Origin: Isoetes taiwanensis
Taxonomy: Eukaryota; Streptophyta; Lycopodiopsida; Isoetales; Isoetaceae
Reading direction: 5' to 3'
Assembly (NCBI GenBank): GCA_021234155.1
Contig: JAJEKV010000149.1
Coordinates: 124,001-188,000 of the forward strand
DNA length: 64,000 nt
Positions 30,141-51,085 of the stretch are shown here, in pieces; position 1 is the first letter of the stretch; the number at the start of each line of letters is the position of its first letter. The notes beneath the pieces were generated by a model that did no database searches, was not told where the DNA came from, and saw only the letters and a list, made by a program, of their open reading frames with translations. The position numbers were made by a program, and so were the translations under genes.

Positions 30141-33100
30141 AAGAAAAATGGATCAGCTTAAGCCGAGATCAAGAAAGAGCTGCTTGGGGTGTGTTAGGAG
30201 AGTGGGGCTCAAGAATAGTATTTAAAAATGAAAGATGCTCTTAGGGCTAAGAATATTCCCTCACCATTAATAGCCCTATTATTTAGCCTCCTTATTAAAT
30301 ATCTTTACTATATATAATTATTCCTTATTATAATTAAAATTCGATTTTTTTTCCTAATAATTTAATGTGTTAATTATGGATTTGCGCCATTTTTTACCCG
30401 GATCTTGGATTGAGATGATTCTTCGACCAATCTTGGGTAAAATTTGATGCTCATGCAAATTTCCACTCCAATCTTACTAGAATGTCAATTTGGCTCATCA
30501 ATTTTTCCTGCATCTATAATTTAGCCTAACTTTATGATCCTACTACTTAGGAGAAAAACTTTTCCCTCATTTTTCGAGGTTCAATGCTGGAATTTCTATC
30601 CCATGCTCTATTAGGCCGGTTTGACTACTACCTCAGGGATCTGAATCAGGCTCCTATACAACGGAAGCATAACATAATGTCAGCACTAACAATGACAATA
30701 CACCTAACTACCTCGAAGGGTAGCACATCCATACATCTATAGATACAACAAAGATATCAATATGCCATAAAACATGAGAGCTCCTACCCAGGCTCAGACT
30801 CGTAAGGAAGTAGACTGATGGCTAGGCCACAAGTTAGAGCAGACCGAGATATAACAATGGTGGTGCTGGCTATAAACAATGGCTAGGGTTAACCACTCAA
30901 TTTGCGATCAAAATATATTTTAAACAATGGATGATATGACTTCAACGCCAGAGTATCCACCTTCAGCAAGCTCTCTTGTTAGATTTGTTGGAGCCTCATT
31001 TAGCTCTGCAATATAAATACCGTCTGCAACGAATTGCAATAATATATGAATAAGATCTCATGACTACAAGAATGAACCTTTTGCCATGAAGCTAGAAGCT
31101 ATGCCGCACGAAAAGTCCGGATCGAGAAAAAGGCGTAAAAACAAATCAACTGACCGCTCGACTTTTGGGTTAAACTGACTACCCAATTTAGGGCATGATG
31201 GAAAAAATGTACACACCCTAAAAATATTATCCTATATTATAAGGTTTTATCAGAAGTGTTGGACCCAGCCCTAGATTGGGGCTCATATTAATTAGGCCAT
31301 GTGGCATCATCATGCCCTTCCAACTTACCTTTCTTTCTTGAGGTTTTCGTTAGAATTTCTCTAGGGCAACGATTTTTGTATGGAGGAGCATGGTGAGCTT
31401 GCAAGAGTCGAAAGATTGTATTTTTCGGTTAGGGTGAAGGTTCTAGCTATGGCCCGGAGGTGCTTCCAGCCCGAGTGTGGTATTTTTGCTCTATATTTTA
31501 TAGGGCCGTAAACAATCAAGCACGCCATGTAGGATAAATAACTTGGCTTAGTTTGGCCCGGGGTGATATTTTGCACCTTCTTGCTAAGATGGCGCAACTA
31601 AATCAAGAAACCATGAAATTTTTATTTTTCTACATTAACAAATTGGCTACGAGCAAATTCGTGCTAGTAAAGATAGGAACATGCTTTGGTAGTGAAAATA
31701 CAACGTCTAACCTCAACCACCTAGGCATCTTTCCCAAATAATACATTCAAATTGCATTGCCTATTTAACATCACCCAATTAAGTGTCACCTATTTGACCT
31801 ATTTAGATCGCATAACCTATTTAATAACACCTAGTTAGATTGCAGCTAAACATATTTAACTAAATGAATATATCTAACCAATTTAACCTATTTTACATCA
31901 CCTAGTTAGATTGCATGTAAACATATCTAACAAGATGAATATGTCCAACCAATGTAATGTGTTTAACCGAACCATAATTCGGCGTGTTTGGGCATCAACC
32001 CCTGTTTATGTGCATCAAAACCATTCTTGCATACATGAACATGGTGAAAACTAACCCAAGTGATGAGATTAAAGCTTAGATTGGATTTAGGACAGATCTC
32101 CCTCTCAACCAAAATCGCGGAATACAAATCAAGATCTACAAGTAACAATATTAAATTCTTATTCCATTCAATATTCATATGGTTAGACATGAAAATGAAA
32201 CAAAAAATAAGGTAATGGGGTAGAATAAAGCTAAACTCAGGTGTGAAAGCACCGCCTCTCGATGATGCTAAACTTGATTAAATTAAAAAACTAATATGAA
32301 TCCCTAATAGAGGACTACAAGTGGCGCATTTCCTAGTAGCCAATGTGGTCTGAGGTGTAATATGGCTACCCCCTAACCCATTTAAATTTATTTGATGTTC
32401 TAAATGGCTACCTCGTTAATTTTTGACCACAAATAAAAATTCAATTGGCCACACCCCTACGCCTAGCAAGGCCTAGTAAATTTCAAATTGGCTACTAAAC
32501 ATGCAAAAATCACAAACTCGTGGTTTGAATCGACGATTACCCTTCTGGTCATGACATGAATGTATCCTACTCTAGCGTGAGCCGCTTGTTTCTAGAAAAA
32601 ATGTGAATATGTGGCCAACCGACTCACCGGGCCACTAAAAATACCCCGGCGCCCGGAGGTACCGAGAGAGTATATAGCTTTTGCCCTCTACCAAATGGCC
32701 GAGATGTTAGCACCGTTTCTCGATACCGAGTTGATTGGGTAGAAACTCTCGAGGCCCATGTCTTGGCGGATTTTCCCGGTATGCTATTTCTCCCGTGATC
32801 CCGGCAATACAACCCTCAAATGGCAAAGGAATCTCTCCGTGCTCGTGGTCTTATTTAACAAGATCAAGTCGCAAGAAACCGCCATGCACCAAAGATTAAT
32901 TTTGGGATCAAACTACCATCGGATACAAAATCGGGGACCCCATTAATCGCACATATTCAATAAACTCAATTATAGATGGATCTACAATGGTTTTGCTGCA
33001 AAACCCCTTCATGGTGAAATCATGGTTTTGGTGGTTGAGGCATATGATGTTGATGACGGTCGCAAGTGTAGAATGTGGAAAAAATAGCTTGAAAGTTAAC

Positions 33101-33400
33101 CTACGACATATACTAGGTCAATGCATTTATTTGTTTTGCCAAAGGACTTTATAAATTCATTCTACCCTCAAGCTCGTGATTTGATCTCGATTTTATTGAG
33201 CATCTTCAGCTTGATGTATATTCTGTGGTGGTTCCTTTCTTTTAGGTTATTGTTCTTTAGTTCTTTGGTCCGAGGAGATAAACTCATGATGCCACACATT
33301 CTCTATGGTATGAAGCAGGCTAGAGCATTTTGATGGTTGCACTTATTGTGGCCTGGATAGAAGGGCTACACTCACTACAGCTAGGGAATCAGGACTTCGC
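30141..33400. other. No gene recognised
   Basis: Long AT-rich stretch. A small direct repeat of ACATCACCTAGTTAGATTGC-type words with 'acatatttaac' occurs at 31770-31940. No coding, tRNA or terminal-repeat signal was convincing. Confidence 0.35.
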
Positions 33401-33498
33401 TTTCTCTGGCAATTCATCTATTGTCTTGGCTGATGAATGGAGGTCTTTTGAGTGGATGCCTCCATCTAACGCATTTTATATACCTGAATGGTTCAATT

Positions 33499-33895
33499 AA
33501 GGAATTAAATGAGCAATGGAAACTTCAAGATGTAGAGAGGATCGCTCTTGGAAAAGCATTTCAGGAAGCCTCAGAGGAGTGTGAAAAGCTCTTAACAGAG
33601 GTAGGTCAGAAATATAGAATGGCACATTCTTTATATAATTGGGGCTTGGCTTTGTGTTACCGAGCACAACTTATTGCAGATGAAGAAAGTGAGGTTAGGA
33701 GTTTATATCCATTCTCTTTCTAGATTTATTCAAATAGAATCGTTTTTAAGATATATTTGTGCTATCTTGCTTATTATTGCAAATCGCTTTTGTTACTGAT
33801 TGTGATTTCTTATTGAGGCATAGCAGCACAAGATGCAGACAAACTATATATGGCTGCGATTTATAAATTTGAAATAATGATGAATATTACTGGGG
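33499..33895 (+). pseudogene. Two exons of a TPR-like protein gene fragment
   Basis: Exon 1 (about 33499-33688) encodes ELNEQWKLQDVERIALGKAF and later AHSLYNWGLALCYRAQLIAD. Exon 2 (33824-33895) encodes AQDADKLYMAAIYKFEIMM. A GT at 33689 and AG at 33823 join them in frame. The pattern of W..ALx.RA and A..LY..A..KFE fits tetratricopeptide helices of plant organellar proteins, but I cannot name the gene. No start, stop or further exon was found, so this is a fragment, possibly carried by the Helitron that ends at 35139. Confidence 0.5.
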
Positions 33896-35111
33896 GTAAG
33901 AGTTCTGTTCTATAGGTTCATATAAATAATAGTCCAGAAAATGGCTAACGCAGCTTTACAGTTGTTACAGTCATTAGCTATAACCCGGTTACCATATCAG
34001 ACTATGCCTCACACAATGCAAGAAGACTTTGGCATGTTGTGAGATGAGTAAGTGTGAAGGACAAACTTTTTGCTCACGTCATATTAAAGAACTATTCCTC
34101 TGATCTTGATTTGCATCTTCATATATAGTTATTAGGCTCCGTGGGCCTATCTCAACATCTGGCAGACTTCATGGTTTTCTAAAATGATAATTCTATGTAT
34201 TTTCTGCCGATCAGCTACGATAAAATTTGTGTTGGATAAGAAGATGGTGTGCTTTATGGGATTTAACATGTGCTCCTATATTTTACAAATTCTGTTTCCT
34301 TATAGTTGCATGTACATGTAAGTATCCTAATGTCCTTTCTTTCTTCTTTTAGAAATTGTTATGTTTTATGCACTCAACTTTTCATCAATATATATGTTGC
34401 TACAATATAATGGCAACAATAGGCAAATAATGGTGTTCTGACAAACCATGAATCATTATCTGCACTCTCAAACTTTTCCATCTATGCATCTCAATAAAGC
34501 TATCACATTATAATGCAATCCCAATGATGTTATTTCACTACGAGGTCATTTTCATGAACGCCCTCCAACACTTCTATAGTGCAATCTATTTACATGCATC
34601 CTTCTATAACGCAACTTTATTTCAAACTATTATGTAAAGAAGGCTTATCAAGTAACAATGATCTATAACGCAACTTTATTGCAAACTATTACATAAAGAA
34701 GGCTTATCAAGTAACAATGGTTATGTGGACATATGTAATATATTTGCTTGCTATTCCAAATGAGCAACACTAAACTCATCAATTTACTTGCAAGTTTAGT
34801 TCACATGGCTCTCTAATAAATATGCAAATAATTTAACCTCTGCCACTTTTCAATGACGCATTGAGTAAACAAAGGAATAAATATACAACTAATTTAACCC
34901 ATGCCGAGGGGGAAGAAATAGTTACGAGTGACAAAATTGACCTACATTATTTGTTCTAATGTAAAGGCAACAAAATTATAGGTACATCAACAATGTCGAA
35001 ACTGCATCAAGGTCTCCATGATATAAAGCACTATACAAAAATTGAAGCCCAAAATGCACACCATTAATCCTACATGAATCCTACAACGTTGAACCCAACA
35101 GCTGCCTTATA
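33896..35111. other. No gene recognised; Helitron upstream flank
   Basis: AT-rich. A two-copy tandem repeat of about 59 bp lies at 34604-34720 (CTATAACGCAACTTTATT ... AAGGCTTATCAAGTAACAAT). The stretch ends at a Helitron terminus. Confidence 0.4.
34604..34720 (+). repeat. Two-copy tandem repeat, about 59 bp
   Basis: CTATAACGCAACTTTATT through AAGGCTTATCAAGTAACAAT is repeated with three or four differences. Confidence 0.8.
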
Positions 35112-35139
35112 GCTCAGCAACGCTGGGCACCACTACTAT
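35112..35139 (+). mobile_element. Helitron 3' terminus, degraded
   Basis: GCTCAGCAACGCTGGGC has one arm mismatch, then ACCACTA and CTAT in place of CTAG. It resembles the other ends, so it is probably an old copy. Confidence 0.55.
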
Positions 35140-35204
35140 ATTCATATAAAAGCAGCAAGAGAGAGTGACTATAAGAGATTATAGTAAACAACCTCAACAA
35201 CTCT

Positions 35205-36750
35205 GAAACGGACCTAGCCCCTTGGCCTAGGCCGTTGCACCAACACGTTTAACATCTAAGTTAAACATACATGAGACTTATATACATGCTCAATAAAGTA
35301 TAGTCCCATTGATCAGATAATTACATACAAGACCAAACTCCTCTGAGTCTTGGCATACTACAACTCCTTTAGCTCAACAAGTCCTCCTTATAAGTCACTG
35401 AAGACGACTCTGGAAAACGCTCCTGCTGTCGCACCCCCATCCCTAGACTCTCCATCCAATATCGCATTCTCAGCATTTCGGTGACGTACCATCTTAAACA
35501 TACACAAACAACACTGTGGGGTTAGTCCACAAGGACTAAGTGGGGAGGAACATTTCGAGCATCCACAACATCAACCACCTGTAATCTACCATAACCATCA
35601 AAGATAAGAACAACAACAATTTTACCGCGCCCACTACGCCCTTGCATTAGTTAGAACTCGGCTACAAGCATGTTTACATTCACATCAATCTCTCGTATGT
35701 ATGCACATATGCCAAAGCGTAATCCTTGGGTTCGGCACCCCAAGGAGACCACTCTCCATCTCAGACGCATGGCTAAACTCATCCAATGTGCTCCTCGCCT
35801 GGCCGGATGAGTCTACACGGCCACCCCACCCTCCGGAAGGTGGGCCGCAAATGCACAATATGCCATCCAACAAAGCCATCGGCCGGATGCGGGAGTCTCA
35901 CGGCCATTCCACCCTCCAAGGTGGTCCGCTTTGCAATGCAAGATGCAACATCATCCATCATGACTTTACAATACATCTTACGTCCAAGAACAACCACAAA
36001 ACAATGCAATACAATAGAATGAGGTTCATACCAAGATATTTCATATCCAAGTGACAACACATCATTGCACATCTCAAAGCAAGAACAGAACTCCCTTAAC
36101 ATATAAGCAACCATATCTTCCGTGTAATACCATAATTACACTAACGTCCTAGAGATAATTCACATATTCTACTAGAAGCATAACCAAGCAATACAATAGA
36201 CCAAGCACTCATCAAATCCCCAAGCACGCGCCAAATCCCCCCACCTCGGTTTCTGGATTGATTCGCTTCCTATCGACTAGATCCGCCTTTCTTGATTCTA
36301 TTTCCTCGCCTTCCCATCGCAAGCTCCTTCCGGTTTTCAAGCATCGTTTCTACAAACCGCCAGCCTCTCCTTCTCTAGAGAATAGGTAGAGGAGAACAAT
36401 AAACACGATCCTTCACCAAACCAAGGCACCCCTCTCCTTTGTTCACATCCAATATATATACACAATGACTAAATCTCAATGCATATGCATGCTAGACAAG
36501 TGTCATGCATATGCCGACATGCATGCATGCATGATGTGATGTACATGCATGCAATCTAATGCATGCTTATCATATTTTACAAGTCCACTACACATTAATC
36601 TAACACCTTCTCGCTTATATAACCTTTGCCAATATATTTCTATAGTTTTAAATACCACTACTAGCATAACCCATGGACGATATCAACAAGGTCGTTAGAT
36701 GATCTACACCCTCTTATACTGAGATAAAGTAAGCCACTAGGTTCGCTACA
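35205..36750 (-). repeat. 3' LTR of the minus-strand element
   Basis: Nearly identical to 38007-39539 with scattered substitutions and one-base indels, so the insertion is not very recent. It contains an imperfect internal duplication at about 35795-35935 (GGCCGGATGNGGAGTCTNCACGG followed by CCACCCTCCGAAGGTGG words). A TATATATA motif occurs near 36452 in the U3/R part. Confidence 0.8.
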
Positions 36751-36761
36751 TTCTCCCCTTG
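36751..36761 (-). promoter_or_regulatory. Polypurine tract
   Basis: On the minus strand CAAGGGGAGAA abuts the TG of the 3' LTR. This is the plus-strand primer site and sets the element's orientation. Confidence 0.75.
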
Positions 36762-38006
36762 TAAAATTCAACTCATGTCCTCATGAGTTACTTGAGGTAC
36801 ACATGCTTCTCCAACCTTAATATGTGGCATAACTCTACCCTATAAGGCAATCGCTTCAATGCGGGGCTAACACTGCTTCTACTACTTTTAAATGCAAAAG
36901 GCTAAGCTTTTAGCCAACTAGGGCATCTTTTATCACACTCGAAGTCTTCTCAATTGCACATTTCTGCCACAATAGCAATAGAACATGGGTATTCCCAATA
37001 CCCTTCCACATCATACAAAAACTTCGTTATTAACCCATATAGGCTTTAAGCTCCACTATTTGGCCCAAATTGGTGTAGTCCCAACTTAATCTATCACATA
37101 CTCAAGTGCATCAACCTTGCCACTAGCATGTATAAAGTTTGAAACTAGACTTAACTTCACTATTTATGCTAAAATTCCAAGCAACAAGTTTGAATTATTT
37201 ACTACAGATGTCCAAGCTAACGTAGCAAACATCTGCATTATAGGGTTAATCCACTTTTTCGTACTAAGGATAAATAGCGCACTATGAAATACTAAGCCCA
37301 CTATGGAAAGAGATACTCAGCTCGGACTAGATACATATTCATATGACACATCTTGGGTGGCCAAATCCAAGAGTGACAAATAAAACATAATCACACCCCC
37401 CACTGTGTATCTTATAGCTATACAACCCGCACAAGTAATTTCAAGGGATCCTAAAAGATTATGAACATAGTTTATTGTGATTTCTCACAAAAAGAACCTA
37501 CTCAACATAGCTAACAACTTCCTAAACCCTTGAATTTACCTCTTTAAGCACTGTTCATGAGCCCTCACAACCCTAGCATCGATTTTGTTTGAAGCCCCTA
37601 CAACTCCTACACATGGTCTAACGCTGCAACGTGGTCCACCATTAGACAATCTACCGCTTATTGAGATTTGTAGGAACATACCTTCACAATTATCATGGCC
37701 CAATTGCTCATACCTTGCATGAAAATATTCTTCTTAACATTTCATCCTGCTTTCGGCACTTTCAACCATCCTTGATGAACTGCATTCCATTAGCTTTTCT
37801 ACCTTACATAGCATAGAATAATAATCAAAACTCAAGATACTATCAATCTCTTAGATCTATGCTCGTTCCTTGTTCCTCTTAACTTATCGTGGCTGGTGCA
37901 TTTACCAAACAACAAACCGTTCTACTTTATAGTAGAATCTCTTGAACTCTTAGCCCTTAATTCCCATGGCCTCAAGGTGTCGAAACTTTCCGCCCGATAA
38001 TTAATC
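36762..38006 (-). other. Internal region of the LTR element, non-coding
   Basis: I see no open frame with gag, protease, integrase or reverse-transcriptase features in either strand. The part next to the 5' LTR (minus strand GATTAATTATCGGGCGG) does not begin with a recognisable tRNA complement. Confidence 0.6.
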
Positions 38007-39539
38007 GAAACGGACCTAGCCCTTGGCCTAGGGCCGTTTAACCAACACGCTTAACATCTAAGTTAAACATACATGAGACTTATATACATGCTCAATAAAG
38101 TATAGTCCCATTGATCAGATAATTACATACAAGACCAAACTCCTCTGAGTCTTGGCATACTACAACTCCTTTAGCTCAACAAGTCCTCCTTATAAGTCAA
38201 TCAAGACGACGAAAACGCCTCGCTGCTGCACCCCCATCCCTAGACTCTCCATCCGAATATCGCATTCATTTCCGGGGCGTTACCATCTTAAACATACACA
38301 AACAACACTGGGGGTTAGTCCACAAGGACTAAGTGGGGAGGAACATTTCGGGAGCATCCACAACATCAACCACGGGTAATCTACCATAACCATCAAAGAT
38401 AAGAACAACAACAATTTTACCTCGCTCCACACGCCTTGCATTAGTTAGAACTCGGGCTACAAGCATGTTTACATTCACATCAATCTTCTGTATGTATGCA
38501 CATATGCCAAGCGTAATCCTTGGGTTGCGACCCCAAGGAGACCACTCTCTCCATCTGTACGTACAGGGCTAAACTCATCCAACAGGCTCTCTGGCCGGAT
38601 GCGGAGTCTACACGGCCACCCCACCCCTCCGAAGGTGGGCCGCAAATGCAATATGCCATCCAACAGGCCATCTGGCCGGATGCGGAGTCTCACGGCCATT
38701 CCACCCCTCCGAAGGTGGTCCGTTTGCAATGCAAGATGCAACATCATCCATCATGACTTTACAATACATCTTACGTCCAAGAACAACCACAAAACAATGC
38801 AATACAATAGAATGAGGTTCATACCAAGATATTTCATATCCAAGTGACAACACATCATTGCACATCTCAAAGCAAGAACAGGAACTCCCTTAACATATAA
38901 GCAACCATATCTTCCAGGTAATACCATAATTACACTAACGTCCTAGAGATAATTCACATATTCTACTAGAAGCATAACCAAGCAATACAATAGACCAAGC
39001 ACTCATCAAATCCCCAAGCACGCGTCAAATCCCCACCTCGGGCCGGATTGATTCGGCTTCCTATCGACTAGATCTGCCTTTCTTGATTCTATTTCCTCGC
39101 CTTCCCATCCGCAAGCTCCTTCCGGTTTCTCGCTCTTTGTTTCTACAATTCGCCAGCCTCTCCTTCTCTAGAGAATAGGTAGAGGAGAACAATAAACACG
39201 ATCCTTCACCAAACCAAGGCACCCTCTCCTTTGTTCACATCCAATATATATACACAATGACTAAATCTCAATGCATATGCATGCTAGACAAGTGTCATGC
39301 ATGTGCGACATACATGCATGCGATGTGATGTACATGCATGCAATCTAATGCATGCTTATCATATTTTACAAGTCCACTACACATTAATCTAACACCTTCT
39401 GCTTATATAACCTTTGCCAATATATTTCTATAGTTTTAAATACCACTACTAGCATAACCCATGGACGCATATCAACAAGGTCGTTAGATGATCTACACCC
39501 TCTTATACTGAGATAAAGTAAGCCACTAGGTTCGTTACA
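38007..39539 (-). repeat. 5' LTR of the minus-strand element
   Basis: Partner of 35205-36750. The outer edge (TGTAACGAACC on the minus strand) is followed by unrelated flanking DNA. The internal duplication near 38595-38720 is clearer here: GGCCGGATGCGGAGTCT occurs twice. Confidence 0.8.
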
Positions 39540-39689
39540 TTCATAGACATGGCCACTTGCATTCTACAAGATCACAACATAATCCAAGGGCCAAGAAGTT
39601 ACTCTACAAGTTTTGAAAATGATCCAAAGGCGCAGAAGATACTCTACGCAAATGCACAAGTTAACAACATTTACAGGTTCCCAAATTAT

Positions 39690-39717
39690 GCCCAGCAGCG
39701 CTGGGCACTATTACTAG
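39690..39717 (+). mobile_element. Helitron 3' terminus (plus strand)
   Basis: GCCCAGCAGCGCTGGGC, then ACTATTA and CTAG followed by T. Its hairpin is identical to the end at 12992. It is oriented tail to tail with the minus-strand end at 39985. Confidence 0.8.
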
Positions 39718-39984
39718 TTATAGAAGAAGATAATAAATGTATGACTCTGGAGAAGCTACGGACCACGATAATATGGCATCTCTTAAAAACATTTAATTTC
39801 TTGACTTTGGGTGGACTTAGCATCTTTGAAAAATGAAAGCGATGGAGTGATGTGGATGTCTAATCTAAAATTGAGGACAAGTAGGTTTCTTGGCCTAAGT
39901 TCATGAATAGAGACAACTCATGCTATTACGGATATTCAACAATGCCGATCTCAACAATAATTAGTGGGATCCTTTTATGATATA
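39718..39984. other. Spacer between two tail-to-tail Helitron ends
   Basis: 267 bp, AT-rich, no gene seen. Confidence 0.5.
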
Positions 39985-40012
39985 CTAGTAACGGTGCCCA
40001 GCGTTGCTGGGC
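39985..40012 (-). mobile_element. 3' terminus of the Rep-Hel Helitron
   Basis: Perfect 17-base hairpin and CTAG/T end on the minus strand, about 120 bp past the helicase stop codon. Because this copy is attached to coding sequence, it identifies the other five hairpin ends as members of the same Helitron lineage. Confidence 0.85.
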
Positions 40013-40132
40013 ATAAGTTCAGGCTGTAAATGACACCAAGATGGTATTTATGTTTGAATCTATGTTATTCACATAAACAGAAGTACAGATTGCAGACCTA
40101 GGGCATAGTTCAGTATAAGAGATATCTAAGAA

Positions 40133-40562
40133 CTAAGAGGCTATTTCATCCCATAGATTTTCTTTGTAGACTACATTTGGAGTGAACCTCCTATTGTTTT
40201 TTAGTAGAGCTCCTTGTCTTGAGGTGTCTTGAATGTATATCTTCACTCCGTGTTGTGTGGTGCACCGTGAGAATGCGACATAGAGCTGGCCCTGGGCAAA
40301 AACTGGCGTTGGTAGGTAGATGCCAACGGAGGTCATGGACTGGCCTTGTGACTTGTTTATGGTCATTGAGAATGCAAGTCGTACGGGGAACTGCCTTCGC
40401 TTGAAGGGGAGGAGGTCGTTGTCTGATGGCTCCAAGGTTATCCTTGGTGTGAGGACGTGTTCCTTTGTAGGTGCCTGTGATTATCTCTGCATCTATGATT
40501 CTTGGATGTGCTTTTATTACGCGAAGGCGGGTGCCATTGCAAAGACCGGACTTTGGGTTCAT
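40133..40562 (-). pseudogene. Helitron helicase, C-terminal motifs
   Basis: Overlapping frames read MNPKSGLCNGTRLRV, then [26 protein letters not shown] and [11 protein letters not shown]. These are motifs V and VI of PIF1-like helicases (the CNGTRL, KSQGQT and Y-V-A-x-SR blocks). A one-base frameshift near 40440 separates the two frames. Confidence 0.85.
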
Positions 40563-40731
40563 GTTTCTGAGTAGGATGATGATGGCAACGTCCTTGATGT
40601 GCAGTTTATACGTGGCATGCCAGAAGGGGTCAGGTGGTTGATGAACTCAATTGGGAAGTCTCTTGTAGCATCTTCACCTTCTGCAATGATGGCATCCATG
40701 CTCGTACATGTGCTGAGTTGCCCGTGTAATC

Positions 40732-41124
40732 TTAGGAGGACTTATTGTTGATTTTCAGTGTGTCTTCATTTTTTGGTGTCAGGATGGCTTTGTCATATAA
40801 CAGGTGCACATTTGCCTCTGTTATTTCCTTGCGGAAGATGCTATCAATCAAGTCATCTTCCACAATGCATTCTTCGGGTATCTCAACCAAGTCGTAGTCG
40901 AGCCCTGGCTCATTGTTCATCCGTTCCCTGTTACTGAGACGTAGCAGCCAATTTGAGAAGGCTTGCTCGTCTCTTCCGACCCGCATATTTTGTGTCAGCT
41001 TGTGGGTCTTGAAGTTAGTCCACAATGGGTTCCTCTTGACACACTTCGAAATGACTTCCGTCCTTGTTGCACGCTTGACCACAGGCAGCTGTTGTCGAAA
41101 ATCGTCGTTGATGAGCATTATCAT
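40732..41124 (-). pseudogene. Helitron helicase, middle motifs
   Basis: INDDFRQQLPVVKRATRTEV, LWTNFKTHKLTQNMRV and a segment ending near ILTPKNEDT correspond to the 'GGDFRQ.LPV' and 'L..NMRV' blocks of PIF1-like helicases. The frame stops at 40732, before the C-terminal motifs. Confidence 0.85.
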
Positions 41125-41145
41125 TCCCCCAAACGGCCTGTCATC

Positions 41146-41460
41146 CTAGCGTATCTCACGTAAAAGCCTGTCAACGGCAGTTAGTGCGTGCGTGTATGTC
41201 ATCCCCATTTCGTCCCAAACCATGCTGCTTGCCTTTCTAAGTACCTCTGCTTGTTGGCTTGTTGCACGTAGTGCGGAGGTTGCCTCTTGTGTCAGGTTGA
41301 GTGGTAACTTGAACGTTGAATGGATTGTTTGTGCTCCCTTCAAGAGGAGGCTGGCAATACCTGTCCAAGCTACTGATACAATGCCAACACTGCATCCTCT
41401 TAGTATACTGATTAGACTGTTGAAGAGGAATGTCTTGCTTATACCTCCCGGACCGTCCAC
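41146..41460 (-). pseudogene. Helitron helicase, ATP-binding motifs
   Basis: DGPGGISKTFLFN is the Walker A loop, in which the usual GTGKT reads GISKT (glycine replaced by serine). WDEMGMTYTHALTAVDRLL covers the Walker B acidic pair (DE). Helicase activity is doubtful even without the frameshifts. Confidence 0.85.
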
Positions 41461-41523
41461 ATTGATACATGGGGCTTGATGCTGGTTGATTGCATCAAGG
41501 ATAATGTCGGCTATGTGCTTTTA

Positions 41524-41991
41524 CTATCTGTTGAGCTTGCCATAGTTTTCTTGCCCTTCTTTCATTTCCTTTTCTACATCAAAGGTCAGTTCATTTGGGA
41601 AGTTGCCTAGAATATCTAGCCGTGGTTCTGGCAGGCCAAATTGTTGGCATGTGCAGCCGCTCATCTGGAAGATGTCGTCGATGTCCCTCAATGCGTTGTT
41701 ATAAGCTTGCTCTTGTGGCATCTGCCATTGGTAATCTTCTGTTAGGCTGTCCTTGTAGAGCTCCCATAGCCACATTGGATCTTGTGGGTCATTGTATAGG
41801 CAAATGAATGCGAATGTCTGATGTAGCTGCATTGGCATCTGGAAGATGGTCGCATCTTCGAGTGTCTTCTCCCACTCAACATCATCTTCCAGTAAGCCGA
41901 GTTCTTTGGCAGCTTCCTTGAAAGTTGAACATAGTTTTTCATTGACAGTGCGCATGTCTTCGAAGCTAGTTGCACCTTTGTTATGTAGCAA
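41524..41991 (-). pseudogene. Helitron linker between Rep and helicase
   Basis: The frame has ATSFEDMRTVNEKLCSTFKE, ELGLLEDDVEW and FAFICLYNDPQDPMWLWELY, matching the conserved linker of plant Helitron proteins (GA.SFE.LRTV, A...LGLL..D.EW, LR..FA.IL..C.P..P..LW). The 42000-42325 part before it is the same region in broken frame. Confidence 0.75.
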
Positions 41992-42325
41992 CAGGAGATG
42001 GAGATAATAGCGACGCCTCCTTAGGGCTCACATTGTACATCCGTGTGATGAGCTTGAACTTCCTCCCACTTTCTCCATGATTTTCGCACATGAATGTGTA
42101 GTGTTGGGGATTTCTGGATAAGTCTATTCACGTGCGGCTGGGTTGTTCTTGTTGAGCTCAAATCATGCAGTCAGCATTGTTCGCTTTTGCATCCTGCCGC
42201 CGATGGCTTCTCCTTCGTGGCCTTCCCGATAATAGATGACTTGGTTGTTTGGGTGATGAACGTAGTCTCAGGTAATCGTATGGGAGTTACCATGCATCTT
42301 AAACCCATATAGCCTCCACATGGCT

Positions 42326-42583
42326 TCACCTGCAGAGGCGTATTCGGTCAAGGTACCGCTCCACCTCGCCCCAATTTAATGTGGATGTGGATTCCCATAT
42401 TGGTTCTGTAGTGACCTTGATGGATGCTCGATCATGCCCTTTGTGGATGTTATTGTAGATATACTTCGTGGTGCCAACACTGAAACGCTGCTCTACATTG
42501 ATATGCGCCTCGTACTTTTCAAGCAGCCACTGATTATGCGGAACTATCCATCTGTTGTCAATAGGCGTGCTGCCCCTCATCAA
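42326..42583 (-). pseudogene. Helitron Rep, tyrosine-motif region
   Basis: STPIDNRWIVPHNQWLLEKY, EAHINVEQRF and TTKYIYNNIHKGHDRASI align with the block carrying the two catalytic tyrosines of Helitron Rep (usually KYLYKYIYKGHD). The second catalytic position is asparagine here (AAC instead of TAC), so strand transfer would be impaired. Confidence 0.85.
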
Positions 42584-42604
42584 ATGGCCTGTATCTCGTC
42601 TTCT

Positions 42605-43135
42605 CTACTCTGGATAGCCATTTGCATTGACTTTGGTATTGTCATTAAATGGCTTTGGAAATCCCTTTGTGTATTCCTTCGTTGGACTACTTTCCTTGGC
42701 TTTCATGCAGGGAGCATTTGGGTTGAGAGGCCCACATGTGCCATGAACCATATGCTCAGCACTCGTGATGTTGTCAATGGCATCACTGTCTCGAATCTTG
42801 TCTTCTTGTTCGAGAATTATGAGGAGGTGGCAGTGTCGCAAGCCTCGCTTCTGGAACTCTATTGTGTACATATGTGCCTTCACCTTGCGCAAGATATAAT
42901 TTTCAAAGAGGTTATGGAAGAACACTTTGAGCTTTGTGTGGAATACACGTGCAATCAAATATGGCCTATCATGCGGTTGTTGTCTAGGTAGCAGGTTGTG
43001 TTTAATCTCCATCCAATTTGGGTTGGATGTAAATGTTACAAAGAGGTCTGCTTTGCTAAATCTTTGAATCAAGGTCATTGAATCTTGGTAGTTCTGTTGC
43101 ATTGTGCTAGGGCTCCCAATGTGTGAAGAAGGCAA
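42605..43135 (-). pseudogene. Helitron Rep, HUH motif region
   Basis: LFVTFTSNPNWMEIKHNLLP is the first Rep motif. QKRGLRHCHLLIILEQED contains the H-x-H metal-binding motif (HCH). The order and spacing fit the Helitron_like_N/Rep domain. The open frame covers 176 residues. Confidence 0.85.
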
Positions 43136-43878
43136 GATGACCCTTGCCAGATCTTAAGCCTCTTTGCTCTGCTTCGTGGTCCATGTAGTCAATGAAGCCT
43201 TGGTACAACTCGACTCGCAACTTCCTTTGGTTTTGCTTGATCCAGTTTAGTTCGTTTGCCTCCACTCTCGAGTAGGCATCAACAATGAATTGTTGTGTTA
43301 GCTTGCCCGCCCAAAACAGTGGGTTGCAAACTGGACTCCTTATTGTGAGCCGATAATTGTAGAATTGGAGCATACACATTCTCCTGTTTCCTTGAAGACG
43401 TTGATGTGGAAGATATTTCTACTTTCTTGATTCCTATCCTCCAACCCTGGTCGCCAAAATGAGAAGAGCATGAGGTAAACTAAGGGATCGAGATTTGGAT
43501 CTGTGATTGGGATCTTCTTAAGGCCACCACCCTTTTGGTGTATGTAGATGTCCCTGTCGAATGGTGGCTCTCCATCTGCGTTGACAAATATCACTGGAAC
43601 TTCATTTGAGCATGCTTGGTTGTACCTCCTAAGGTCCAAGTTTCAAGCAGTGTTAAAGTACATCCTAATGTCTCTCACGTCTTCGCCGGACCGTTGTGCA
43701 TGCTCCTCTCATGCATCATCATAAGGGCTGCTGCATAGGGGTTGATGTTGTATACTGCGGCATTCAGTTCTTTGAGGAGGTGCTTGTCGCAATTTTCATT
43801 CTGGGGGTTTTGAGCTCGTGTCTCATGTGCAAAGTCGACATCTAGAATGTAGAGCTGAAAATATATTGCGGCTTGCAT
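43107..43878 (-). pseudogene. Helitron N-terminal domain fragments
   Basis: Three frames (43675-43878, 43340-43639, 43107-43379) read NPYAAALMMMHE, DLRRYNQACSNEVPVIFVNA, LDPLVYLMLFSFW and LTIRSPVCNPLFWAGKLTQQFIVDAYSRVE (given here in parts). These match the YN.P...EVA.I, hP.Y.PL.YPLLFP.G and R.LFQQY.VD.Y conserved blocks of Helitron proteins. Confidence 0.75.
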
Positions 43879-43947
43879 ACCATCGGCATATGCTGGACCT
43901 ACCCTATGGTAGGTTTGTCCTTGGATCTTGAAACAATATGGTCCATG

Positions 43948-44625
43948 TCATTCGAACTGCTCGATGTTGACACCAAAGGAAGCAAAGGCAAGCGCATAGG
44001 CCCTGATGTGCTGGTGGAAGTTGGTGCTTTTTGGGTGTTGGTGGCTTAGCGATATCTGGATTAGATGGGACATTGGTTGTAAGGGCTCTAACTTGATTTG
44101 TCCATCATGGCAGCATTTTGTACCATCATCCTTGAATGATAATGCCTGACAATGTATGCACTCTCTATTGAATGGGCCGTAGTGGTTCCCTTCTACCCGT
44201 GTGACTCCAAGCATCCTTGCTATTCTGTACGTAGGTGAACAGGCTCTCCATTGACGTTGATATTGTGCAAGTTCGTCGAGTCTCTCTTGATGATCTTCTT
44301 CCATTTCTGTGGTAGCTTGTTGGGCTCTCCTTTGGCATTGATATTGGGCATGTTCAGCTAATCTTTGTTGATGCTCTTCTTCTGTTTCTGTAGCAACTCG
44401 TTGGGCTCTCCATTGGCGTTGATATTGGGTGCGACATTGGGTGCGCTCGACCAATCCTTGTCGATGCTGATGTTTTGATTCTATAGCCTATTGCAACTTT
44501 CTTCACTTGTAATTCTCTCTTTGTTTCTCCAATCGAACTTCACGTTCCAGTGCAGTCTCTGCAGCACATTTTTTCTTGTGCCTCGCACGCACAGCTGCAA
44601 GCCTTCTTTCTCGTTCTTTCGTCAT
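43948..44625 (-). pseudogene. Helitron protein N-terminus with 26-residue repeats
   Basis: The likely start is the ATG at 44625 (MTKERERRLAAVRARHKKKC). An in-frame stop follows about 40 codons later, then the frame continues from 44454. It holds two tandem units like YQRQWRAQRVATETEEEHQQ and then CIHCQALSFKDD, matching the conserved 'C..C.A..F' segment in front of Helitron Rep domains. The Q/R/E-rich repeats probably form coiled coil. Confidence 0.7.
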
Positions 44626-44854
44626 TACAAATTAAGTGTTACAAGAATGTTAGTTGTGTGAGTTCTTACTCCATGAATCTTTAAAATTGTCTAAAAGATC
44701 AAAGGCAAAATGTATTGTCCTTTTTAAAAAGGCATCTTTTTGAAAAAGGGTAATAAATGTGTCGTCCATTGCCTTTTTTTTATCTTTGCCTTTTTTCATG
44801 TACAATATTTTACGTTTGGGGAGAAGTGAGTTGCATAAATAGATACCACTATAG
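44626..44854. other. Helitron upstream untranslated region
   Basis: Low-complexity AT-rich stretch between the Helitron start codon and the UBA1 fragment. No gene. Confidence 0.4.
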
Positions 44855-45260
44855 CAACAACAGCACCCACAACAAATACTTTAGCATCAAGAAGATTCTA
44901 CTACAATTGTCTTCCAAAGATTGATATCTGTCTTCCAAAGACTGATATCTGTGCATCATATCGGCTACTCAACGGTTTAACATCCTCGGGAGACAATGGT
45001 TCCACGCGAAGAGATTCCACTGAATCAAAATAGAAAAATTGCAAAAGATGGTGGTAGAAATCTTTGAATAAGGAACTTTGCGAACTACAAAAACTGACAT
45101 GATATAAACATCAATTGAAAAAAATGAACTCAAAAGGGGATGAAACTTTCAAGAGCAGACTTTCACAACTTCTTCTCCAACAATTCCTCCAAAGGTTGCA
45201 GCCGTTGGATTAAGAATAGCTCGTGATCCACTTGGAAACTGCTTCAGCAGTCTCTTCTAT
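44855..45260 (-). pseudogene. UBA1: UBA1 (ubiquitin-activating enzyme E1) gene fragment, two exons
   Basis: E1 activates ubiquitin by adenylation and thioester formation. Minus strand, first exon (about 45245-45125): [34 protein letters not shown], stop, KFHPL. Second exon (about 45040-44855): [35 protein letters not shown] and, after a small duplication, LLDAKVFVVG. These are consecutive residues of the conserved E1 region that precedes the second adenylation domain. The intron is retained, so the copy came through DNA, not mRNA. Faults: a TGA in place of a glycine codon, no AG at the second exon's 3' splice site, and a 21-bp tandem duplication (44926-44967). Confidence 0.85.
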
Positions 45261-45751
45261 TGTCTAATTTGCAGTTCCCTGCATTTCATAATATTCTCAC
45301 AATGGCTATTATGGCCATGTTTAGAAAACAGCTAATCCAGGGCTTTGGAAAGCAAGATGGAGCAAGGGTGGTGATCATTTGACAAATGATCAGTAATATG
45401 GAAGCTTAGATGATTCAAATTTGTGACATTAAATGTTAAAGATGCAATGCTTGCTTCTTGCATCTACATTTGCTGGAGTGTTTGAACTGCCTTCCACTGC
45501 GTGCATGTCCCACTGGGTATAATCATTGACCAACACATGGAAGTACCCCCATCTGCACGTGCATTTTCAAGTGCATACAATTAGAATTCACATTGGACCT
45601 TCTGAGAATTGCAGAGGTATGCATCCAAAAGATGTAAATTTACACAGATCCACCAAAGTATTTTAATCTGTCATCATCTGCAATACATCATTTGCAAAAC
45701 TGTCATCCTCAGAAGCACCGCTAGCATTTTTTGAATAACATACCTCTGCTT
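45261..45751. other. No gene recognised
   Basis: Between the UBA1 and KEG fragments. A minus-strand frame near 45480-45600 (NARADGGTSMCWSMI) looks coding-like but is unrecognised and could be a further captured piece. Confidence 0.35.
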
Positions 45752-46441
45752 TTATACCTTAAATGGTTCAGCGGCTTCAACTTCTTCTGATTCACACTGC
45801 CACGGACTTTGTAACCAACTCAAGTCAAGAAGCAGACTATTGTCTGGCCTTATGCTATATACAACGCCAATGCTACCTGGAGTTACTGGACCCAACCCAT
45901 GCTTTGCTGAAGTAAGAGAGGGGCGTATTCTAACCCAGTCTCCAACCTTAAATTCTTCCATTCTTTCCATTTCTACAGGATCTGTCTTCCAATCCCTTGA
46001 AGCTCCAGGAAAACCCACTCGTAAAATACCATCATCATCAATACACTGCACCGTCCCAATGCTGTCACGTGACTGCCCTCTCCATCCAAACTTGCATTAG
46101 GTCCAAGGCCAACTGTCACAACTCTTACCAACATCCATACAAATACATGGACATATGATTGACATATATTTTGCCCCCATTCTTGGAGCTTCCTGCTTAT
46201 ATTATGAAATAAAGAAATTAGTTACGCCTCATTTCATGATTACCTTGGCTGCTTGATGTCATATTTGAGCCGTACCGACTAACCTCGATCCAAAGGAACA
46301 ACTTTTACCAGTTCTTCTCCCAACGCCTTCACCTCACCAGTACAGAATGCAATAATGAGCTCATTCTTATCCAGAATTGCCTGGACAAAGCCCACGCTTC
46401 CATGATTTGCACCCTGCCAACCATACTTTGGGGCATGCATA
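45752..46441 (-). pseudogene. KEG: KEG (RING E3 ubiquitin ligase) gene fragment, two exons
   Basis: KEEP ON GOING is a plant multi-domain E3 ligase (RING, kinase, ankyrin, HERC2-like repeats) acting in abscisic-acid signalling. Only two HERC2-like repeat exons are present. Exon a (about 46441-46280): APKYGWQGANHGSVGFVQAI and EELVKVVPLDRG, ending at a GTTAG donor. Exon b (about 46096-45755): FGWRGQSRDSIGTVQCIDDD, GILRVGFPGASRDWKTDPVE, EEFKVGDWVRIRPSLTSAKH and SIGVVYSIRPDNSLLLDLSW. Repeat signatures (P.YGW, SVG.V, F.VGDWV) are intact, but the end of exon a and the rest of the gene are missing. Same strand as the neighbouring Helitron. Confidence 0.85.
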
Positions 46442-46682
46442 ATTTTGTCTTCCGACAAAGATTATCAACAGCCTTTTGGCCAGATGAGCAGCATAAAGGG
46501 CACTCAAAGGGGTAAGTATGGCTATTTCAAATTCAAATTCATAATTAACGATGCTTTCGAATAAGAGACCGTTTAAAGGCAGAATATATATATAATATGG
46601 ATGAGATCTGTACCACTCCCTTGAGTAAGAATTCTATTGCAGTGACCTATACAAGAATTGCAGCTGCATACTGTATCCAGGA

Positions 46683-46995
46683 GTGATGGCGAAGAATACC
46701 GGCCTCAGCCAACAAAGGAAAGCAGATATGGCAAGAGCACCAGTAAGCCAGCAGGATCTCAAAGATTTCCTGGCCCAAATGAACAAACAGCTGGAATCTA
46801 GAATCCCGAACATGGATGCACTCAACACACTGGCGGAGACGGCCAACCGCAACAAAATAGCCATCTCCAGCATGGATATAAGGATAGGAAGGATCGAGAG
46901 GACGAGCGAGGAGATGCAGTGAAGGATGAATGAGATTGAAGAAGAAAAGGCTAGGATCATACAGAGGTTGGTTGAGTTAGAAAAAAGCAAAGGTT
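46683..46995 (+). pseudogene. LINE ORF1-like coiled-coil fragment
   Basis: About 100 residues with heptad-like spacing (LKDFLAQMNKQLESRI, MDIRIGRIERTSEEM, a stop at 46920, then NEIEEEKARIIQRLVELEK). ORF1 proteins of many LINEs are coiled-coil RNA-binding proteins. Assignment rests on position 5' of the endonuclease and on composition. Confidence 0.5.
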
Positions 46996-47847
46996 GATAT
47001 AGATGCATGGGAATCATTTGATAGAATAAAGCCGCATATCATGGAATTTGAGGAGCAGAATAGAATTAAGCATGATGTTAGGCTGATAAGGGTAGCAGAG
47101 AAACCTAACGTACAAGACACATATCGAAGCTTACCAAAAGTAAATAATAGAGACAGTTTTTAAAGAATATCGGAGCATCATCGTCAGGCCAATGGAGGGG
47201 TCGGTCGAGGCATATAAACCTGACACTTAGGGACATGACAGCCAAGGAGAGGATATCGCGATGGGATCCGCATTAAGGAATGGATCAAAGCACACGGGCA
47301 TTGACGCATCATGCAACGCCGGGGCTATATGCAGAACTCCGCCGGCCGTGGAATTGAACCAAGCAGGGATACATGCGGAAGTCAGGAACGGCAAAGTGTA
47401 CTTGCACAAGAGGATCAGAGAGCAAACACTCCTAAGACAAGAACAGAATATGGAGAGACCGGAGGCCATAAAGTCAATAGAGCTGGAGAAGGAGAATATC
47501 AACCCCTTGGCGATTATGGCACAAGGGCAGGAAAGGAGAGCCTTGGGGGGAGCACTGACGGAGATGGCCCTAGAAGCGATACAGCCCAGAGTAGCAGAAA
47601 GAAACGGAAGTGGGGCCGGTGAAGCCCGAATGCCCCAAACCGGAATCATGGGCCCAACCTCGATCACAAAAACCAAAGGGCGACCGAGAAGGGTAGGCAA
47701 CGGGCGTAACATCTGAGAAAGGGGCGAGGAGCTTCAAGGGAAGAGATTTTTAACAATATGGTAATCGGAACCCTTTGGATACACTTGGGATGATGGAGAG
47801 AGGCTTGAAGGAGCCCACAGCTGTGACAGGGCTGCGACATAATATGT

Positions 47848-48336
47848 TTGGTAGAGACATGGGAACACAATATCAAGCGGTTGTTAGAGGAAAACATAGA
47901 TGCATTACAAGGTTTCATAGCAGAACAGCAAGGGGATACGGACGCCCCCACGCTAGGAGACACCAAAGTACCCATTATACTATATGCTGATGACCTAAGC
48001 ATGATGGCCACAAAGAATAAGGGGATGCATAGATTACTAAAGCTACTAGAGATCTTCTGGGAAAGAACAGGGCTACCGGTGAACCTTGCAAAAACCAAAA
48101 TAGTCATTTTCGGTAACAGGAACAGACACAGACCTTTCAGATATATGGGGACAGAATTAGAGGAATCAACAGAATACATGTATCTGGGATATGACGCACA
48201 CGGCACGGGGAAATGGGCTAAAGGGGCGGATGTCAGGTTTCAATCAGCCATTGGGAGCTACTTCAGTATGAAAAATTTCTGTAATAAAAGCAGAATAATC
48301 GACTGGGAGATCAAGTGCTACTTGTTCGCCAAGTAA
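47848..48336 (+). pseudogene. Endonuclease-start / reverse-transcriptase fusion frame
   Basis: Open for 162 codons. The segment VETWEHNIKRLLEENIDALQ joins the endonuclease start to the reverse transcriptase just before GFIAEQQGD. YADDLSMMATKNKGMHRLLK and NLAKTKIVIFGNRNRHRPF follow. The frame is preserved across the deletion, probably by chance. Confidence 0.75.
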
Positions 48337-48836
48337 ATGGTCGGCCTTAACTATATGGGGGCGAGGCATGGGGACCGGGCCCAATGATAAGAAATGGGAC
48401 AAAGAGGAAGGGATCCTCGACAACATGGCATAAACAGTAAATTCAAGGTGCAGGCAAACACACCCTTGGGAGTCATGATATATGAGACAGGCATACATGA
48501 GAAGAAACTATGCAAAATATTTATGGTTAATAGACTTAACTACTAGGTATTCATGATAAGAAACAATGTAGTCATAGAACAAATGCATTCATGTATATAA
48601 TTAGTAAGTCTATTGTTGTTTCCATTCATTAACCAAAAGTGCTTTAGATCATAGAAGTATAGTAATTTGTCATCATCATTGCATGTATGATAGAAGAACT
48701 ATTAGATTTTGAGTGCAAAGGTCGCCATTGTAATTCAAGAATTTTAAGATTAGAAACTATTGGTGGTTTACCAGCCTTCAACTACATCTCGAGTGGAAAG
48801 ACCACCATTCTTTGCATCAGTTTAAATGCTTTAGAA

Positions 48837-49380
48837 GGAAGGAAGGAAGGAAGGAAGGAAGGAAGTATATTTTAACGTCCACGGAGACCAACTGGCCTAT
48901 GAGACGGTTTTACAATATAGCGGAAAGTTTCCAAACACAAAATAAAACCACAGAAATCTTGTACAATGTGTCTCTACCACTGGGATGAAAAAACCCCCCG
49001 TGTGGGAGGAAAAACCCTTGTAGTAGGCGTTGAGAGGCCCTATTTGGGCGCTAAAATTCCTTGTCTTTGTGAGGGACTCCACGATGGTGGAGACTTGCGG
49101 AATGTAGGGGCATAAGGCGTGCCACCATTAGCGAAAGCAATGAGTTGGTGAATTGCTATTTCAGAGCATCTGAGATCGGCATGAGCTGCTTGGATGTGTG
49201 CAACACCATTCAATGCTTGGAGGAAACTTTGCACTGTGTAGATATGGAAGATTTGAAGGTCTCCTTGAAGCAATGCAGGGTCTTCCGTGGTACATGAACT
49301 CGATGCGAGCTCTCTTCATAAGACACAATAACACACTGGACCGTCTTGAGAGGCTATACTTTCACACTATGCAGGCCTAA
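48837..49380 (-). mobile_element. Short retroposon with hairpin box and (TTCC)n tail
   Basis: On the minus strand the sequence ends in the hairpin box (48905-48875) followed by (TTCC)n (48865-48837). Upstream is the TTTTTCCTCC...GGGGGGTTTTTT stem also seen in the copies at 8469 and 50840. An open frame (49273-49040) has no recognised domain. The left/5' limit near 49380 is a guess. Confidence 0.55.
48875..48905 (-). other. Conserved 3'-terminal hairpin box, copy C
   Basis: Minus strand: GTCT-CAT-AGGCC-AGTT-GGTCT-CCGT-GGAC. Both helices can form, using G-U pairs. Confidence 0.7.
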
Positions 49381-49389
49381 CATGGCTAT

Positions 49390-50118
49390 AAGAACTCATG
49401 TGAATCTGTTTTAGCTCTTACTTGCTGTTGGGTTTCTGGTTTTTGTATGTATAGAGCTTGTGTATATGCTGCTTGCTTATGAATCTTGTTGTTGAGGCTT
49501 CTTTGTGAAGCTACTTATCTACTTTATCAATGCAAACGTTTTAGGTTTCTATATGTAACTTGGACTTCGTACATGTAATTTCATGTCTCTCTTGCAAATC
49601 TGTGCATGTACTATTTGTTGTAAAGAATGTGCTTTGTTGGTTAAGTTCTTTTTGCAATGTGGGTGCAATTTAATTTTGGTCCACTCAATATATATTCTTT
49701 TCTATTTGTCTTCTATATATATGTATACATGTATGAATATATGCATGGGGAGCACTGGCTTCTACATGGGTCTGATGTGGAAATTGGACAGTCCTTCGTT
49801 GGCATATTCGTGGAATTATCTCTGGATCCAATGATCCAGAGTGAGCAATAAGGGATCTTTCAGGGTTTGGATATTCCTCTGCGAGTTGTCCCGAGGGCCG
49901 CTACAAGCTAGAATCGCTAAGGCCTACCATTGTTCTTCGCTTGCTCCTGCCAAGCGACAGTTGATATTTGAGTCCTATTTGAGTGTGTTGTCTTATGCAT
50001 AGGTTGGTGGTTCTACTCAGTGGATCATGATTATCCTCTGAGATTTCATTCCCGCCTCTGCATTTGTATCTGGCTTTTGGCTTGGAGTTTCAATAAAGTT
50101 TGTCGTTCAAAAAAAAAG
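49390..50118 (+). other. Retroposon-like stretch ending in AATAAA and poly(A)
   Basis: The signal AATAAA at 50091 is followed 13 bases later by an A run (50109-50117). That is the layout of a retrotransposed transcript end (LINE or processed RNA). The upstream sequence has no reading frame I can identify. Confidence 0.4.
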
Positions 50119-50145
50119 GGGGGAAGAAATAAGGAGTCCATCCAC

Positions 50146-50188
50146 GGTATTGTAATGCATAATCATGAATCTTATGCATTACAATACC
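50146..50188. repeat. Perfect 17-bp inverted repeat with 9-base loop
   Basis: GGTATTGTAATGCATAA (50146-50162) and TTATGCATTACAATACC (50172-50188) flank TCATGAATC. It is a perfect hairpin with low G+C, next to a poly(A) end. Confidence 0.85.
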
Positions 50189-50519
50189 ATGCACATTTGG
50201 AACAAAAAGTTGAATCTAAGATTTATAAACACAATAACCTAAACAGTTTGACCGATAAATGGTGGTTTATTGCATATAACACATTGTGAACCGTGTGCAT
50301 TTACCATGAAAATTAGCCATGCTAGTTTACCACAATAACAAACCATAATAACCACCACACTATAAAATCCCATGAATAGAGCACTACATGAAACCACATC
50401 CACAATCATCATCTTATACCATATGGACAAACTGTACCTATAAAACATTATAATACACCACATCCATTTAGCAATATATAATACCATTTTGACAAATACC
50501 ACAAAGAAGCCATTACAAT

Positions 50520-50963
50520 TACCCCCCTCTCGGTGGGTTGGAGAGCCGCGCCAGGACAGGCTTTGTCAGTGTTGCCCATTGGGGGTTGTTGAGGATGAAA
50601 GCCATGCCTTCGATTTGTCCGACCTATAGTCGATTCGAGATTTCGCTACATTCTCTTGGTGCGACACAGTGGTCCCTACCGACGAGCTTCTCGAAGACGT
50701 CGATTCGATCCCTTGGCTCCTACCTCCGGAGGTTTTGATCCGGACTCACCTCGCCCGAGCCTACCGAGGTGCGGGAAATTCATATGTATATGTATATTTT
50801 ACAATTTGCCCGGTAGGCTTGTTCTGTGACGGTTTTTTCCCTCCTAAGGGGGTTTTTAATCGGGGTAGCAACGGGCTTGCTGCACCCGTGTAATTTGGGT
50901 CCCATAGGCCGATTGGCCTCCGCGGACGATAAAAGAACCTTTCTTCCTTCCTTCCTTCCTAAC
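50520..50963 (+). mobile_element. 444-bp retroposon with target-site duplication
   Basis: AAGCCATTACAAT (50507-50519) and AAGCCTTACAAT (50964-50975) flank the insert, a target duplication with one base lost. The 3' end has the CCCTCCTAAGGGGGTTTTT stem, the hairpin box at 50897 and (TTCC)n. It is either a 5'-truncated family-1 LINE or a SINE using the same tail. A 12-base A/T palindromic run (CATATGTATATG) lies at about 50791. Confidence 0.75.
50897..50934 (+). other. Conserved 3'-terminal hairpin box, copy D
   Basis: GTCC-CAT-AGGCC-GATT-GGCCT-CCGC-GGAC. Compared with copy A, an A-T pair of the inner helix has become G-C on both sides, so pairing is kept. Confidence 0.8.
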
Positions 50964-51085
50964 AAGCCTTACAATATAACCAAGTGGTTTAGCCACATAT
51001 GGTTTTTAATGAAATTAACCCACAAAGACTCATTGGATTTGTAGTATGGTTTTTTAGTTATAACCACAGAAAAAACCATGTAGTG

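Follow-up and report, generated by a model that had tools for sequence, protein, structure and literature searches.

Pack-MULE and CACTA transposons carry gene fragments, and the locus described here resembles these carriers in holding unspliced host gene pieces within a DNA transposon, whereas its ends are of the Helitron type. The closest described systems are Helitrons of maize. The cited part of one report describes stepwise capture in the HelA family, from ZmhelA3 to ZmhelA2, and a case in which a single inserted gene fragment sets two elements apart (Dong et al., 2011; PMC3288121). The same source presents ZmhelA1 as a putative autonomous maize Helitron with eight predicted gene fragments (PMC3288121). 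As in maize HelA, so far as described there, the difference between related elements in Isoetes taiwanensis is one gene fragment inserted internally, pieces of different genes appear to have been gained in sequential steps, internal sequence has also been lost, and the 3' end is CTAG. In contrast to maize HelA, these elements occur in another plant lineage and have other ends, two captured genes are traced, and the captured unit abuts a broken Rep-Hel gene. The co-occurrence of Rep-Hel sequence and gene fragments recalls ZmhelA1 as reported. Unlike ZmhelA1, however, the locus has a broken Rep-Hel gene and lacks its 5' end, and that all parts belong to one element is only a candidate reading.

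The sequence under study lies in a window of 64,000 nucleotides (contig C962, positions 124001-188000), which was compared with the whole genome of 1,658,258,908 bases in 1110 contigs. The consulted part of the genome paper gives the assembly as 1658.30 Mb in 204 scaffolds and 909 contigs, built from Nanopore and Illumina data and optical maps (PMC8566536). In the main text of that paper, as available, the word Helitron occurs 0 times (PMC8566536), and a literature search combining Helitron and Isoetes returned none about Helitrons by title. The pieces of the ubiquitin-pathway genes UBA1 and KEG in this window lie in the remains of rolling-circle transposons, whose parts are as follows.

39985..40012, minus strand: Helitron 3' end (motif scan; flank 39718-39985 present at C1034:628222)
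40133..44631, minus strand: degenerate Rep-Hel transposase gene (PF14214 and PF05970; open reading frame fragments)
44843..44862, minus strand: upstream sequence of the Rep-Hel Helitron, abutting UBA1 (shared with the copy at C1034:12.229M)
44863..45430, upper border approximate, minus strand: captured unspliced UBA1 piece (DNA and tblastn matches to C1037)
45431..45741, border with UBA1 approximate, minus strand: body of the family that carries UBA1 (joined without a break to 46434-46512 at C1078, C1040, C1057 and C1089)
45742..46433, minus strand: captured unspliced KEG piece, inserted in the Helitron body (match to C974; junctions against empty copies)
46434..46512, minus strand: Helitron body, continued, cut off at 46512 (same four loci)
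46513..48500, end approximate, plus strand: repeat abutting the Helitron body (match starts; RVT_1, E 4e-8)

The original prediction placed unspliced UBA1 and KEG fragments side by side at 44855-46441, in the orientation of a Helitron transposase. Both fragments are real, with narrower borders: UBA1 runs from 44863 to about 45430 and KEG from 45742 to 46433, whereas about 45431-45741 and 46434-46512 are Helitron body and not UBA1. The two pieces share the interval, but KEG sits inside the Helitron body and does not adjoin UBA1. Their orientation is that of the Rep-Hel gene, on the minus strand and upstream of its degenerate copy, and each retains one intron, in agreement with the predicted movement as DNA. 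The suggested comparison with parental genes located likely donors, UBA1 on C1037 and KEG on C974. Searched against the whole genome, the interval 44855-46441 gave at least 55 matches (40/68 first-look candidates scored), with E values of 1e-137 against the UBA1 gene and 1e-303 against KEG, far beyond chance. UBA1 copy counts are lower bounds for the same 40/68 scored candidates. A plasmid search gave no match and was uninformative.

The KEG piece comprises two exons and one intron. Positions 45742-46434 align with C974:20118794-20119466 at 93.2% over 693 columns (646/673 ungapped positions), and the minus-strand frame 45752-46096 matches the Mind bomb SH3 repeat (PF18346, E 5e-20). Seven of the eight SH3_15 matches in the genome are on C974, the remaining one being in the window. 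At C974, ankyrin repeats lie upstream of the SH3_15 repeats, a combination that forms part of the KEG architecture. On that part of the architecture the name KEG rests, and the locus would be the likely donor. The KEG piece matched, with 7/7 candidates scored, the window, C974, C930, C1070, C1094, C1076 and C325, and C974 is the only KEG locus detected in this search. At C1078, C1040, C1057 and C1089, KEG is absent from the same position and the sequence up to 45740 and from 46434 is contiguous; the piece is therefore an insertion, which brought no target-site duplication and almost no loss of body. A nested Helitron was excluded by eye, as the borders of the piece do not have TC...CTRR ends. 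The C974 locus is without 19 bases that the captured piece has (window about 46260-46290), and the gene there reads TGA in the first KEG exon frame, two codons before the TAG of the window. The captured piece may thus preserve an older exon, the difference at C974 reflecting assembly error, an allele or decay.

Shorter KEG matches were also observed. At C1076:4010150-4011180, 63-69 bp of KEG exon precede another Rep-Hel copy by about 0.7 kb and share its orientation, and C325:126466-126528 matches the same 63 KEG bases as C1076 at 97%. C1094 has a KEG exon piece at 4736-4916, 88% identical to the gene; no Helitron 3' end was recognised in the 9.9 kb scanned there.

The UBA1 piece spans one intron, flanked by the end of the exon before it and the start of the exon after it. 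Its segments 44863-45311 (83.9%) and 45315-45371 (82.5%) match an E1 gene at about 13258.3-13260.2k of C1037, and tblastn with an exon of that gene extends the match to 45430. The C1037 gene encodes UBA_E1_SCCH within a 704-codon open stretch, together with ThiF, E1_FCCH and E1_4HB domains, and its top PDB matches are named 'Ubiquitin-activating enzyme E1 1'. Three more loci have SCCH matches, all three absent from the DNA search list, and the C1037 gene is the likely donor. The window piece has stops in its first exon frame and two tandem copies of a 21-base unit with one difference between them. Elsewhere, UBA1 pieces are 77 to 90% like the donor, and those in C1040 and C1057 have an identical 3' breakpoint, which argues for a single capture that then spread; the window piece ends earlier than in these two copies. 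A further match of 85 bases lies at C1060:6936-7022.

The elements that carry UBA1 form a non-autonomous family with ends of its own. Its 5' end, derived from C1057, C1089 and C1078, is A followed by TC(C/T)TATAT(A/T)ATAA, and its 3' end is a hairpin and TTACTAG, followed by T. A motif scan of the window and the scanned loci found 18 ends of the form GCCCAG..CTGGGC..CTAG, at least two duplicate pairs among them (window/C930 and L060/L061), with T after each. The UBA1 part matches at least 10 non-gene loci (40/68 candidates scored), nine of which were examined. Both Helitron ends surround the piece at three of these (C1057, C1089 and C1078), where an unspliced piece thus lies between the ends and its donor elsewhere, bearing out the proposal that gene pieces had been captured by a Helitron. 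The 5' end alone was found at one (C1040:11.7M, starting TT rather than TC), the 3' end alone at three (window, C1050 and C1040:2.06M) and neither end at two (C930 and C1070). A scan of six loci, confined to the sense strand, showed A before the recognised 5' end in 4/4 cases and T after the recognised 3' end in 5/5. The window copy of the element has only one end left. A search with the 5' body of C1057 returned at least 40 places (best 40 of 417 candidates), and 0/40 of these lay within 20 kb of any of 39 Rep-Hel places, counting scored places only. The body is therefore a mark of non-autonomous elements and not a regular part of Rep-Hel Helitrons, so that its position beside Rep-Hel in the window favours either a fusion or a chance neighbourhood.

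The Rep-Hel gene combines a Rep (HUH) domain (Helitron_like_N, PF14214, E 2e-39) with PIF1 helicase (PF05970, E 7e-29 and 8e-15), and its frame is broken and split over many frames. Its 5' part matches at least 38 other loci (40 of 264 candidates scored). The catalytic-tyrosine region reads NQWLLEKYEAHIN, in which, compared with the usual motif, one Tyr is presumably replaced. Downstream, the minus-strand 3' end at 39985 consists of the hairpin GCCCAGC-AAC-GCTGGGC, then TTACTAG as its CTRR terminus, then a host T. Another 3' end of this Helitron type was observed at window position 13019 (plus strand).

The 5' side of this gene bears on whether the parts belong together. At 44843 an A is followed by TC, the same letters stand at the homologous place in C1076, and homology to the C1076 Rep-Hel copy stops nearby. 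The Rep-Hel copy at C1034:12.229M shares 26/29 bases with the window from 44834 to 44862 (E 8e-4; read from only 121 bases), resumes the match at 44836 and below beyond an insertion, and diverges from the window at 44862, exactly where the UBA1 match starts. A 5' end at 44843 was set aside on two grounds: homology to C1034 crosses the position by 20 bases, and the family end is TC(C/T)TATAT; the TC is probably not a 5' end. If the UBA1/KEG stretch and Rep-Hel are one element, its 5' end is expected to read A followed by TCCTATAT. The family 5' end, allowing up to two mismatches, had no match on the minus strand of 44.6-54.9 kb. The original prediction would have been contradicted by a 5' end at 44.63-44.85 kb, and none of the family type lies between the pieces and Rep-Hel; the 5' end that it placed upstream of 46.5 kb was not found either, the body being cut at 46512, where another repeat starts. 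A host A with 5' TC was not found for the minus-strand element at 44.6-54.9 kb, whereas C1057, C1089 and C1078 have it and C1040 has TT. At best, the window copy is a 5'-truncated relic and not a complete Helitron.

A match to the 5' core with one mismatch occurs at 54928 (minus strand) and another, also with one mismatch, at 51341 (plus strand). This pair exceeds expectation from composition, because a resampling control of 100 runs averaged 0.17 such matches for the two strands together and never exceeded 1. Position 54928 was not accepted as a 5' end, as no flank or copy backs it and the continuation of C1034:628222 is absent there. The repeat at 46513..48500, where 22/41 listed matches start at 46513, is probably a retrotransposon, taking this start and the reverse transcriptase fragment at 47827-48333 together. 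At 48839-50960, two repeat ends have (TTCC)n tails facing outwards, and the right-hand family has 2169 first-look candidates.

The two captures differ in apparent age. By the same BLAST measure, the window is 93.2% identical to the KEG donor and 83.9% to the UBA1 donor, a divergence ratio UBA1/KEG of about 2.4, which is rough given that coding content differs and the donors may have changed. Higher donor identity, together with four copies without KEG, indicates that KEG was captured later than UBA1. To judge from these comparisons, the two are separate captures and were not taken together. C1070 holds a shrunken remnant of KEG, body and UBA1 in the same order as the window, its KEG part identical to the gene at 204/206 ungapped positions. 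It has two deletions, one with 4 and the other with 2 bases of microhomology. That C1070 might be a retrocopy of a spliced chimeric transcript was rejected, since the gaps do not have intron ends (by eye) and microhomologies are present. The neighbourhood of C1070 contains exon-like sequence that gave no Pfam hit and may resemble a nucleoside transporter.

These observations make it probable that the window holds a fused relic of Helitron parts in which UBA1 and then KEG were captured stepwise. A Helitron would first have copied an unspliced stretch of UBA1, about 0.6-0.7 kb long, and multiplied as a non-autonomous family; the body of one descendant would then have received an unspliced KEG stretch of about 690 bp. 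This insertion may represent filler copied during repair or replication, a route expected from the lack of target-site duplication and the almost complete retention of body at the site. Part of the KEG/UBA1 element would then have fused directly, in a manner that can only be surmised, to a Rep-Hel Helitron with the same 3' end type. The 5' end would have been lost at 46512, from a cause likewise surmised, and the transposase would have decayed. A block including the whole relic would also have been duplicated on C930, unless C930 represents a second haplotype. The fused stretch may at some time have transposed as one unit, and the UBA1 and KEG pieces most likely do nothing for the host.

The main rival to this fusion holds that a truncated non-autonomous UBA1/KEG Helitron merely adjoins an independent Rep-Hel Helitron and that the two were never one element. 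UBA1 and the body are indeed parts of a non-autonomous family that has ends of its own, the 5' body was near Rep-Hel in 0/40 scored places, the UBA1 piece ends sooner than those of C1040 and C1057, and A followed by TC stands at 44843 and at the homologous place in C1076. However, the Rep-Hel homology of C1034 runs past 44843 to 44862, the TC at 44843 is unlike the family 5' end, and neither a hairpin-CTAG end nor a family 5' end intervenes between the two parts. The predicted unity with Rep-Hel is thus supported by continuity at the junction and weakened by the absence of such pairs among the scored places elsewhere. The fused relic is favoured over a separate neighbouring element, which is unlikely though a fair rival. 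A joint arrival of both pieces by segmental duplication or repair unrelated to Helitrons could appeal to the duplication of window 25549-51000 on C930, but that duplicate has the unit already formed, and UBA1 copies elsewhere lie between Helitron ends, four of them without KEG (C1078, C1040, C1057 and C1089); the chance of such an origin is next to negligible.

The original prediction also raised a chimeric E1-E3 transcript, and the cited part of one report credits maize Helitrons with the ability to produce chimeric transcripts (PMC4528327). An expressed and selected chimeric RNA or protein would be in keeping with the KEG exon frame 45752-46096, open over 114 codons, and with both pieces being in sense with the Helitron. 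Against it stand the stops in the UBA1 exon frame, the broken Rep-Hel transposase and the putative KEG acceptor, which reads GCAGGTTT in the gene and GCAAGTTT in the window, its AG moved by one base. In addition, the second KEG exon has 2 synonymous changes over 77 sites and 9 non-synonymous changes over 259 sites, counts that give no sign of constraint and are pairwise, few and inclusive of changes in the gene lineage. Little weight falls on the TAG in the frame of the first KEG exon, because the C974 gene reads TGA two codons earlier and is without the 19 bases. With separate captures in addition, the chimera is unsupported, and a selected product of this stretch would be very improbable. 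The original prediction allowed that the shared ubiquitin pathway might be chance, which is indeed the best reading because UBA1 and KEG were captured separately. A preference of this family for taking up gene pieces just upstream of Rep-Hel is improbable; such pieces could provide the transposase with 5' untranslated or promoter sequence, so that the element itself would favour capture there, a reading suggested by the KEG exon upstream of Rep-Hel at C1076 besides that in the window.

A second Helitron with the same end type occupies 31230-39717 on the plus strand, tail to tail with the minus-strand one and with 268 bases between the 3' ends. C1034:628222 is an empty-site paralog for 31230-39717 in which both flanks are joined (left, 80 bases, 92.5% to C930; right, 268 columns, 86.2%), supporting A/T insertion without target-site duplication for this element. 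On its other side, the right-hand flank shared with C1034:628222 is bounded by the minus-strand 3' end at 39985. For the minus-strand element this gives one flank only, as the continuation of C1034:628222 is absent from the window and from 37 kb of C930.

Window 25549-51000 has a second copy at C930:19061720-19085000, 92-94% alike, the left limit being that of the fetched sequence; about 4.3 kb are extra in the window and about 2 kb in C930. The block represents either a recent duplication or an unevenly polished haplotype that was left uncollapsed. A stretch of about 4.3 kb inside the plus-strand Helitron (window 35204-39540) is without counterpart in C930 and has no clear target-site duplication. 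Interpretation of the 39541-51000 match as a transposed 11.5-kb Helitron was rejected, as the match to C930 spans 25549-51000. A 178-bp mini-Helitron from 39541 was likewise dismissed, as C930 and the aligned copies run on upstream and the border is a window indel. Differences between window and C930 are enriched near CAG/CTG in all four blocks compared, most at 44-51 kb (13.2 vs 4.7%) and 25-28 kb (14.1 vs 8.0%) and weakly in the other two (8.1 vs 6.3%; 6.9 vs 6.0%), and assembly errors likely lie behind them. Because such errors are likely and private differences in the KEG stretch are lopsided (50 in C930 vs 2 in the window), C930 is unusable as a clock.

The locus is a clear but ordinary example of Helitron gene-fragment shuffling, stepwise capture having already been published for maize, and the relic in the window leaves knowledge of the Helitron mechanism unchanged. 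Its value lies in an ordered record of two gene-fragment captures in one genome, with likely donors, copies without the second capture and a derived copy. It adds a lycophyte, I. taiwanensis, to the carriers of Helitron-borne gene fragments and helps to separate genuine UBA1 and KEG genes from pieces carried by transposons.
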